Source: a bacterium (lineage in GTDB: Bacteria > SM23-81 > DAOVCL01). Taken from it: a stretch of DNA of 8,040 bases. The position numbers were made by a program, and so were the translations under genes. Positions 479 through 7,666 of this stretch are shown here, piece after piece. The notes beneath the pieces were generated by a model that saw only the letters and a program-made list of their open reading frames with translations, was not told where the DNA came from and did no database searches. The stretch's first letter is position 1. Every line of letters begins with the position of its first letter. The stretch spans positions 1 to 8,040 of the forward strand of contig JAOZPP010000092.1 of assembly GCA_029932675.1 (NCBI GenBank). Reading direction: 5' to 3'.

Positions 479-1063
479 TTACCTTCTCTTTACCTTTCTC
501 CAGTTTTGGGTGGCCAGGGGAGCTTCTTTTCCCACCTCATAGGGTGAAGAGAGAAGTTTCACCACTATTCCCTCATATCCCCTCTCCAATGTCTTGGATA
601 GACTCTTCCTCAGGTCAATCACCCGTTGAAATCTAAGGAAGCGTAAAGGTTGACGGAGACCTAACCCTTTGAGGATAGCCTTCCTTTGTAAGAGGGGGAG
701 ATCCCCAATGAAGTCACCCCTATAAAAGATGATGTCAAAAACCCAGACCAAGGGTTTGAACTTCCTATGTTTGGCAAAAAGGCTAGGTATGAACCTCCTT
801 CCCTTTTTGGTGGATAGCTCGCAATCGAGAAGGGTTCCAGGGGGAAGGTCCCTTTCGCCGGCCTCAACCAAAGAGGGTAACTTTTTGGTCCAATTAGGTT
901 CTCTTTCTAACCTTCTCCCCCAGACTTCAACCCTCCCATCTCCAAACCTAATAAGCTGCATCCTCCATCCATCTATTTTCGGTTCCCAAATCCAACCATC
1001 TCCTATGGATTCACCAAAATAGGGGATGGGTTGCATAAGCCATATTGGTCCATTAAGTTTCAC
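479..1063 (-). CDS. ATP-dependent DNA-ligase-like nucleotidyltransferase, adenylation domain only
   Basis: The protein carries the ordered motifs of the covalent nucleotidyltransferase superfamily. Motif I is 'EPKIDGWR' (27-34) with Lys29 as the expected AMP-accepting residue. A motif Ia-like 'WGRR' lies at 48-51, motif III 'LLDCELS' at 78-84 with Glu82, motif IIIa 'VFDIIF' at 108-113, motif IV 'EGIVVKL' at 164-170, and motif V 'NWRKVKR' at 187-193 with two lysines. KxDGxR is typical of ATP-dependent DNA ligases, which seal nicks by activating the 5' phosphate. The chain ends right after motif V at 194 residues. The OB-fold domain with motif VI, present in even the smallest well-known ligases, is absent, as is any N-terminal DNA-binding domain. 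Motif III reads DCE where DGE is usual. The start is GTG at 1063; an AGGA about 13 bases upstream is a weak, distant ribosome site. It could be a true minimal ligase needing a partner, an RNA or nucleotide ligase, or a divergent adenylyltransferase. Family assignment is firm, activity is not. Confidence 0.86.
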   Translation of the reverse strand: MKLNGPIWLMQPIPYFGESIGDGWIWEPKIDGWRMQLIRFGDGRVEVWGRRLEREPNWTKKLPSLVEAGERDLPPGTLLDCELSTKKGRRFIPSLFAKHRKFKPLVWVFDIIFYRGDFIGDLPLLQRKAILKGLGLRQPLRFLRFQRVIDLRKSLSKTLERGYEGIVVKLLSSPYEVGKEAPLATQNWRKVKRR

Positions 1064-5745: not shown

Positions 5746-6371
5746 TGGCCCTCAGGAAGGGTAGATGGATATATTTTCTTCTTCTCGTGTCCATTCCTGC
5801 GCTGGCGGGTCTAATCTACCTGAAAGCCTGCGGGAGAAAACCTAAAAAAGCTCTTCCTAAGTCCGAGCTTCAGTTCTCCGCTGAGAAGGTAGAGATGAGG
5901 ATTACTGGAAGAGAGGTGGGGCTTAAAGGTTATTACTATTTCAGAAACAATTCCTCTCAGAAATCTATCCATAAGTTACTCTTTTACCCTTTTCCGGTTG
6001 ACAGCGGCCATAATTTCCCTTATATTATTAATGTTTATTATTTCCCCAGCGGGAAGAAGATTACCTATGGGTCAAAAGAAAAGTTAATTTACTTCCCTAT
6101 TGATTTGCCTCCTCGTTCTACCACTGCTGTGGTTGTAGAATACCGCCAGTGCATTCAAACCAATAGTGGCAGATACATCCTCCATACGACAGAATGTTGG
6201 GGCCGTCCTTTGGAAAGAGCGGAATTTCTAATCTGGGTTCCCAAAGGGTTTCAGGATGTGCAGCTCTCCTACAGCCCCACAAAGGTGGAAACATTGCGAT
6301 CTCAGGTCAAATTTACCATTAAGCGGCGGAATTTCCTTCCACATAAGGATTTGGAAATAGAGTGGAAATAA
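5745..6371 (+). CDS. Membrane-anchored or lipoprotein-like protein of unknown function
   Basis: I do not recognise a named family. From the ATG at 5745 it has 208 residues; a GTG one codon earlier (5742) is also possible. Residues 1-28 are a basic start plus a hydrophobic stretch ending in 'YLKACG'. Cys29 sits where a lipoprotein cysteine would, but Lys at -2 makes a poor lipobox, so an uncleaved anchor is equally likely. The rest is beta-rich and presumably outside the cytoplasm: 'GYYYFRNNS' (62-70) and 'LLFYPFPVDSG' (78-88) resemble beta-sandwich proteins in which a strand is followed by a 'YPFP' turn (as in DUF4424-like or VIT-like domains, from memory), then 'VVVEYRQ' (129-135) and 'TTECWGRP' (148-155). 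Cys136 and Cys151 could form a disulfide. The gene overlaps thiL as TGATG with no separate ribosome site, implying coupled translation, although no link to thiamine metabolism is apparent. About 225 gene-free bases follow. Confidence 0.8.
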   Translation: MALRKGRWIYFLLLVSIPALAGLIYLKACGRKPKKALPKSELQFSAEKVEMRITGREVGLKGYYYFRNNSSQKSIHKLLFYPFPVDSGHNFPYIINVYYFPSGKKITYGSKEKLIYFPIDLPPRSTTAVVVEYRQCIQTNSGRYILHTTECWGRPLERAEFLIWVPKGFQDVQLSYSPTKVETLRSQVKFTIKRRNFLPHKDLEIEWK

Positions 6372-6413
6372 CCCCTCTTCCCGAAATGGCTCGATCTGAC
6401 TGTGGCATCCCAA

Positions 6414-6423
6414 TAAATCGAGG
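6414..6423 (-). repeat. Left copy of a 10-base inverted repeat flanking the T9SS gene
   Basis: TAAATCGAGG here is the exact reverse complement of CCTCGATTTA at 7729-7738 on the other side of the gene at 6599-7666. A 6-base dyad (CTCGAT 6390-6395, ATCGAG 6417-6422) also uses this copy. No transposase is present and the match does not extend, so it may be chance. Confidence 0.25.
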
Positions 6424-6505
6424 TGCTACTTGAATCTGCGTGAACCTATGGTTTACCTACAGCCTTGGATGGGTAACCTCTTCTGGGCTTTATCCCTTTT
6501 TGGCG

Positions 6506-6514: not shown

Positions 6515-6585
6515 AAAGTTCACAGAATTCCAAAATTATTGTAAGGGATGCTTCAAAACTTGAGATTAACCAAGACAACTTTAGT

Positions 6586-6594
6586 AAAGGGGGG
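6586..6594 (+). promoter_or_regulatory. Ribosome binding site deciding the T9SS protein start
   Basis: AAAGGGGGG ends 4 bases before the ATG at 6599. The in-frame ATG at 6548 lacks a comparable site and would place 17 polar residues ahead of the signal peptide. Confidence 0.7.
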
Positions 6595-6598
6595 TAAT

Positions 6599-7666
6599 AT
6601 GAGAAGAGTTTTATTGGAGGTAATCGTGCTTTTTCTTTTGCGTTCCGCTTCGGTCTTTTCCAATCCCTATATACTAACCCTAATCAATGAGGTCCAGAGC
6701 TCGCCAGATTCCTTAGAGGCCATAGAGTTACATTGGACACCTGAATTGCCTGATGTTGGGAATATCGATTTGGGAGGCTGGTTTGTTACCACCTCTATGG
6801 GGACGGCTTACATTGTTCCGGGCGTGGTCCTCTCTCCAACTGGCTATGTTGTGATAAACTCCTCAAATACTTATGGAGAATTTTCCTTGAACGATTCTAT
6901 TGAAACCATTAGTATTCACTCTTCGGATTTCCCCGATCCTTTCGACTCGATCTCCGTATTCTTGCCTCCAGAGGGGAAAAGCGTATCCCTCTGCAATGAG
7001 TTCCTCGTAGATCCAAATGATCCATGGTCTATCAATCAGGTGGTTTATTTCTACTGGGATAGTTCACCCACTATGGGTTATGAGAATGACGACCAACATT
7101 CCCGGGGAGTCGTAAAAGGAATGGTGAGGGATAGGAATAATCAACCAGTTTCCGGTGCTTTAATTGTGGCTCTCTTTAGAAACTTCAGTGGTTGGTTTAA
7201 GCCTGATTCTGTAATCACTGACTCTGATGGGCAATTTGAGGTTGATAAACTCATTCCTGGTCCATACAGACTTACGGCACAGATAGATACCCTCTCTGAT
7301 ACCCTTTGGGTGGATGTGTTTAGTAGGGAGACGACCTCGGTGGTTTTTCCCTTGCCCTTTAGTGGTGCAAGTGGTGGCTATGCTTCTTCATCCATTCTGC
7401 CTCAAAGATTGCTCCTATTTCCCAACTATCCCAACCCCTTTAACTCCTCCACTAAGATAAGGTATTTTCTGCCTCGATCTGGCTTGGTTAGGCTGGCTAT
7501 TTATGATATTTTAGGGCGGAGGGTAGCGACGCTTTTTACTGGTTTTCAAAATGCCGGCTACAAATCCCTCTCCTGGGAGCCAAAAGGGCTTTTCTCCGGT
7601 ATATACCTCTGTCGCATCTGGACCTTAGGGGAAGAGGCAACCCAGAAAATTGTTCTGTTGCAGTGA
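6599..7666 (+). CDS. Secreted multidomain protein with lamin-tail-like, carboxypeptidase-regulatory-like and T9SS sorting domains
   Basis: A 355-residue exported protein counted from the ATG at 6599. Residues 1-21 are a signal peptide ('RRVLLEVIVLFLLRSASVFS'). Residues 25-135 resemble a lamin-tail domain: 'LINEVQSSPDSLEAIEL', then 'LGGWFVTTSMGT' and 'SPTGYVVINSS', the usual order of 'I.EV', 'L.GW.l' and 'l.pggy.vi' strands. Residues 170-253 form a carboxypeptidase-regulatory-like beta-sandwich ('VKGMVRDRNNQPVSGALIV', 'TDSDGQFEVDKLIPGPYRL'). Residues 268-355 are a T9SS type A sorting domain: 'FPNYPNPFNSSTKIRY', 'VRLAIYDILGRRVATLF', 'GYKSLSWEPKGLFSGIYL' and a final 'QKIVLL' strand. The protein is therefore expected to cross the outer membrane by the Por-type system, with the C-terminal domain removed or used for attachment. 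No catalytic domain is seen, so a structural, adhesive or displayed role is likely. It has its own leader and no close neighbour downstream. Confidence 0.93.
   Translation: MRRVLLEVIVLFLLRSASVFSNPYILTLINEVQSSPDSLEAIELHWTPELPDVGNIDLGGWFVTTSMGTAYIVPGVVLSPTGYVVINSSNTYGEFSLNDSIETISIHSSDFPDPFDSISVFLPPEGKSVSLCNEFLVDPNDPWSINQVVYFYWDSSPTMGYENDDQHSRGVVKGMVRDRNNQPVSGALIVALFRNFSGWFKPDSVITDSDGQFEVDKLIPGPYRLTAQIDTLSDTLWVDVFSRETTSVVFPLPFSGASGGYASSSILPQRLLLFPNYPNPFNSSTKIRYFLPRSGLVRLAIYDILGRRVATLFTGFQNAGYKSLSWEPKGLFSGIYLCRIWTLGEEATQKIVLLQ

Follow-up and report, generated by a model that had tools for sequence, protein, structure and literature searches.

In ligases, the OB domain closes over ATP while the lysine is being adenylated and afterwards moves to hold the nick (cf. 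a review of LigD, PMC8656161). A survey of minimal ligases states that all DNA ligases combine an adenylation (NTase) domain with an OB domain (PMC8455567). That survey was restricted to proteins of 250–370 aa, a limit that leaves out standalone forms of 194 aa, and its “NT-only” entries were called apparently partial (PMC8455567). The trypanosome RNA editing ligases have a catalytic domain without an OB domain, the OB fold being supplied in trans (PMC4366279). In mycobacteria, LigC and Prim-PolC fill and seal gaps as part of a base excision repair complex (PMC5663958). Our literature search (most subscription journals lay outside its coverage) returned no account of the ligase family described below, no standalone adenylation-domain DNA ligase, and no ligase described from Caldisericum.

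Here, we analyze a bacterial DNA stretch of 8,040 bases (“the window”). The window is the entire contig C10 of a 3.03 Mb genome that is 97% complete, and both of its edges are therefore assembly ends. It carries a gene for a ligase without an OB domain, which we call the mini-ligase, followed by part of a gene for a second protein, which we call the partner. The features are as follows:

1–54 (no strand assigned): end of a mobile-element-like repeat that cuts the partner gene, with terminal sequence ACTGTCAAACTTGGG; identical bases also terminate contigs C21 and C13
55–475, minus strand: 5′ portion of the partner gene, comprising the first ~140 of its ~170 codons; its product belongs to the “GRFQVMAxLQAARA” family, as judged by profile matches and by copies beside the ligase elsewhere
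479–1063, minus strand: OB-less ATP-dependent ligase (adenylation/NTase domain only), 194 aa with a GTG start, assigned by PF01068, homologues, and dN/dS
977–979, minus strand: K29 codon; this lysine, in motif I (KxDG), is the predicted nucleophile, and all 21 family members and all 28 ordinary ligases compared share it

Elsewhere in the window, the C-terminus encoded by 6548–7666 resembles, by eye, a secretion-system sorting domain (PNPFNSSTKIRYFLP...).

The mini-ligase gene and its family

The GTG start codon of the mini-ligase at 1063 aligns with an ATG in the sister-species copy (L016), and a query search of the window's own genome returned the 479–1063 open reading frame as the sole match. 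The product is strongly basic (charge +17, pI 10.4). Its residues 20–192 match PF01068 (DNA_ligase_A_M) up to the last position of the profile, with E 7e-18 and a score of 65.4 bits, above the curated cut-off of 26.2. Among NCBIfam models, NHEJ_ligase_lig matches best (E 1e-16), and the NHEJ ligase model TIGR02779 gives 60.6 bits, below its cut-off of 227.75.

The catalytic motifs can be assigned residue by residue: motif I (E27-P-K29-I-D31-G32-W-R34), motif Ia (G49-R50-R), motif III (D80-C-E82), motif IIIa (F109-D110), motif IV (E164-G165-I-V-V-K169), and motif V (W188-R-K190-V-K192), after which the chain ends with R193-R194 and a stop codon. A preliminary description of this DNA had placed motifs I, III, IIIa, IV, and V in that order at 479–1063 and had the chain stopping at residue 194, two residues past the motif V lysine; the order, the coordinates (on the minus strand), and the end point are all exact. 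It had also treated the DCE of motif III as meaningful. This motif proves ordinary: its middle residue varies within the mini-ligase family (D[SCAT]E), and DAE or DSE occurs in 4 of 28 ligases with an OB domain, so that DCE carries no special meaning.

We scanned ~85,000 species genomes with short patterns taken from the window protein, which yielded four relatives: one in Zixibacteria (same genus; 77% identity to the window ligase), two in Caldisericota metagenome-assembled genomes (MAGs; ~58–59% and 56%), and one in a Chloroflexi MAG (~53–54%). A partner-based search, followed by ligase searches of partner-positive and partner-negative genomes, brought the total to 21 members including the window. 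In all 21, the C-terminal OB domain with motif VI is absent and the C-terminus lies 0–9 residues beyond motif V, as the preliminary description had reported for the window copy, whereas 30/30 ordinary ATP ligases from the same searches run on for 72–486 residues. The two groups are far apart in profile score (family members at least 235, other ATP ligases at most 59). Twelve residues are invariant in 21/21 members (K29, D31, G32, R34, R50, E82, F109, D110, E164, K169, K190, and K192), and the family has signatures of its own, namely, a MQPIPYxGE start, GRRLExxPxW where others have SRN/SRH, and GP(I/M)AT before motif V.

When 49 of these sequences were placed in a maximum-likelihood tree, the 21 members formed one clade with support of 100/100, and the branch leading to it was 1.9 changes per site long. 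Most simply, a single fully supported clade suggests that the OB domain was lost once, long ago, in the mini-ligase family. With midpoint rooting, the mini-ligase of genome G874 (L120, 2573–3166) branches deepest within the clade; our search did not detect the partner in this genome. Between the window ligase and the L016 copy, dN is 0.14–0.16 and dS is 1.1–1.4, and the resulting dN/dS of ~0.10–0.14 indicates that the short ligase is kept by selection. Judged by these comparisons, the mini-ligase family is a conserved, complete OB-less ligase family under purifying selection.

With only 479 bp between the gene and a contig end, and with a broken gene beside it, an artefact might be suspected, i.e., a truncated pseudogene, a frameshift, or an assembly break. 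We give this explanation almost no weight, since the end point is shared by 21 members from separate assemblies, one of which is the single-contig 1.56 Mb genome of a member of the Caldisericota phylum (G110), and since the ligase is under purifying selection; together, the identical end point and the selection rule out accidental truncation. No OB frame lies 3′ of the ligase stop codon, where the partner gene begins after 3 bp. A frameshift or a lost downstream OB frame is excluded by the 20 homologues with the same end point, none of which (0/20) has an OB domain; the earlier statement that this is no simple frameshift was correct.

The partner protein and its interrupted copy

The partner is a protein of ~170 aa (~160–175 aa in full-length relatives) that begins GRFQVMAxLQAARA. 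Its gene lies directly downstream of the mini-ligase gene on the same strand in 17/21 cases, i.e., in 16 genomes besides that of the window, with gaps of −4 to +33 bp. Three further genomes (G852, G854, and G855) have both genes, yet unlinked, the mini-ligase lying beside tig-clpP-clpX. The other neighbours vary among acpS with a HAD hydrolase, groES/groEL, lon/clpP/tig, and a peroxiredoxin (names assigned by eye). For the partner, dN/dS is 0.10–0.16.

The two genes also tend to occur in the same genomes. The partner search hit 8/54 genomes of the Caldisericota phylum and 13/40 of a second class. In the former, the mini-ligase is present in 8/8 genomes with the partner and 0/46 without it (the genomes are related, and p values overstate the association). 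In the latter, 9 genomes have both genes, 1 the ligase alone, 4 the partner alone, and 26 neither (with the same overstatement for related genomes). The partner occurs without the mini-ligase in G853, G879, the distant G209, G347, G858, and G859, and one uncultivated virus contig (L023), and must therefore have a role of its own.

This distribution bears on whether the two proteins form one enzyme. The linkage in 17/21 cases despite changing neighbours counts for a two-part reading, and the conserved operon suggests that the partner does the job of the OB domain with a different fold. The earlier proposal that a partner protein supplies the missing function fits this operon and may be right. 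The genomes with only the partner, and G874, where a genome search detected the mini-ligase and not the partner, count against it.

The partner family itself is wider than its association with the ligase. The virus contig is 87 kb long and encodes a 46% identical partner at 5998–6474, with no mini-ligase detected on that contig; the partner was not found in the named phage or plasmid records searched. Distant relatives (22–29% identical) lie at L077 1769–2293, L078 5511–5999, L079 5492–5941, and L080 5116–5565, in genomes without a mini-ligase, and point to a wider uncharacterised family. In G846 (L072, 4951–5459), the partner is split across two frames by a frameshift or sequencing error, and the ligase is intact.

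The AlphaFold model of the partner is confident (pLDDT 87.5, pTM 0.84) and consists of two N-terminal helices forming a hairpin, a linker, four strands, and C-terminal helices. A five-stranded OB beta-barrel does not appear in it. On the strength of this model, the possibility that the neighbour provides the OB domain can be set aside, and the earlier remark that the neighbour encodes no OB fold is borne out by the predicted structure. Searches returned no significant structural neighbour (best E 0.3 in the PDB, Z at most 2.5 with VIA, and E 0.27 in BFVD) and no family with a credible score in Pfam, NCBIfam, PHROGs, or PADLOC. That a non-OB model resembles no known structure counts against the two-part reading.

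The window copy of the partner gene is interrupted. It diverges after ...LLSQ, at the contig edge, and contigs C13 and C21 both begin with a stretch identical to bases 1–54 of the window. The missing C-terminus (last 30 codons) lies on contig C43 at 48–137, where it adjoins an inverted copy of the terminal sequence ACTGTCAAACTTGGG; both flanks carry TCTCAA. Inverted ends with flanking TCTCAA are what one would expect if a mobile element had inserted and duplicated 6 bp of its target. No transposase gene is evident within ~1.5 kb of the degenerate repeat copies at C70 and C83. The neighbour of 157 residues, which had been taken as intact, therefore owes its length to the repeat, its relatives having ~160–175 aa. 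Altogether, the preliminary reading of a genuine OB-less ligase-family protein stands, while the significance of DCE and the intact 157-residue neighbour do not.

If the interruption is real in the population, the ligase in this genome may function although its partner is incomplete, a mild argument against its strictly depending on one. The interruption also fits an alternative in which the mini-ligase acts alone, either as a one-domain ligase or as an enzyme dedicated to pre-adenylated ends, with a partner that is merely co-transcribed or regulatory. Such a ligase would keep all catalytic residues, as this one does, and a protein of charge +17 and pI 10.4 could bind DNA directly; G874, with no detected partner, and the genomes with the partner only are further points in its favour. 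We nevertheless regard independent action as unlikely, given the adjacency in 17/21 cases, the three genomes that have both genes unlinked, and the co-occurrence across clades.

The primase-polymerase fusion and the proposed function

The ligase of seven Caldisericota-phylum genomes carries a fused N-terminal domain of ~230 residues, with the conserved stretches LDxDP, TGNGxxLYF, and D-x-MYDLPRIxxVIGTxxxKG. PHROG 2478 (“DNA polymerase/primase”) matches 3/7 of these domains (best E 6e-6), and there is a further match (5e-8) to a gene of a Bacteroides phage whose annotation is DNA-directed DNA polymerase. D85, D87, and D178 are invariant in 7/7 (DxD and a later D). We read the fused domain as a putative AEP primase-polymerase with D85, D87, and D178 as its acidic triad. 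Where a histidine is usual in motif II, after TGNG, these domains have C, S, or A (assigned by eye), and the module apparently differs from the LigD-type primase-polymerase. Ku (PF02735) was found in 0/27 genomes tested, with a positive B. subtilis control; this is thus not a Ku-dependent NHEJ system. The fusion suggests gap filling coupled to sealing (cf. LigC/Prim-PolC, PMC5663958).

The fused domain also informs the choice of substrate. Some RNA ligases are known to have a catalytic domain that lacks an OB fold (PMC4366279), and the mini-ligase could accordingly be an RNA ligase or RNA-end adenylyltransferase akin to the kinetoplastid editing ligases. This we consider rather improbable: the relative L017 matches PF01068 at E 5e-18 and the RNA_ligase profile PF09414 only at E 1e-3, below cut-off, the Pfam search gave no PF09414 match in the window protein, and the fused domain is polymerase/primase-like. 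The probability is lower still for adenylation of a target other than nucleic acid, e.g., transfer of AMP onto the partner as a protein modification, with no ligation. A conserved, genetically linked partner and a missing OB domain would suit such an activity, yet the motif Ia arginine and both motif V lysines are kept as in true ligases, and the primase-polymerase fusion points to DNA.

Our preferred reading, to which we give close to an even chance, is that the OB domain was lost once and that the mini-ligase now forms a complex with the GRFQVMA protein, likely serving Ku-independent gap fill-in and sealing in chromosomal repair. A more specific form, which we hold more tentatively, is that the DNA ligase has two components, the place of the OB domain being taken in trans by an unrelated protein with a new fold, and that one lineage has fused this ligase to a primase-polymerase as a compact Ku-independent gap-repair machine. 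The replaced motif II histidine and the poor AlphaFold model of the Caldisericota fusion (five sequences, pLDDT 44) count against the preferred reading.

Under the preferred reading, the adenylation domain would bind ATP and place AMP on K29; AMP would then pass from K29 to the 5′-phosphate, and the nick would be sealed. Lacking an OB domain, the enzyme needs another helper or reacts slowly. The partner would clamp the DNA and give help of the motif VI type in step 1 with no OB fold involved, and in Caldisericota the fused primase-polymerase domain would contribute to both. The job would be short-gap fill-in and sealing without Ku in chromosomal DNA repair. The ligase activity, the DNA substrate, the contact with the partner, and the repair role are inferred from sequence, which suggests a two-part ligase with an unusual DNA clamp.

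Significance and comparison with known systems

Set against the statement that all DNA ligases combine NTase and OB domains (PMC8455567), an OB-less family kept by selection makes the need for the OB domain in lysine adenylation and nick sealing directly testable. It likewise allows a test of whether another fold can replace that domain. The members span several little-studied bacterial groups, including Zixibacteria, Caldisericota, and Chloroflexi MAGs, and the G110 member is probably a thermostable minimal ligase, ready for expression and assay.

The mini-ligase shares the adenylation domain and motifs I–V with Lig C and the LigD ligase domain (PF01068 + PF04679), which themselves pair with a primase-polymerase; the Caldisericota fusion carries a putative one, apparently of a different type. 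It differs from them in having no OB domain, motif VI, or Ku, and in its MQPIPYxGE start, GRR in place of SRN/SRH in motif Ia, and extra GP(I/M)AT. In mycobacteria, LigC and Prim-PolC cooperate in gap repair as we propose for the fusion; they are separate proteins and LigC has an OB domain, whereas the Caldisericota form is fused and OB-less. We know of no GRFQVMA partner for the mycobacterial pair.

TbREL1/2 with KREPA2/KREPA1 resemble the mini-ligase pair in joining an OB-less catalytic domain to a dedicated partner (PMC4366279). Unlike the mini-ligase, they are RNA ligases with a C-terminal domain of their own, and their partner brings an OB fold, whereas the mini-ligase partner is predicted to be non-OB. 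Finally, the Lig E, Chlorella virus, and T7 ligases are, like the mini-ligase, minimal enzymes with no appended domains; all of them consist of NTase and OB domains, whereas the mini-ligase is an NTase domain alone.
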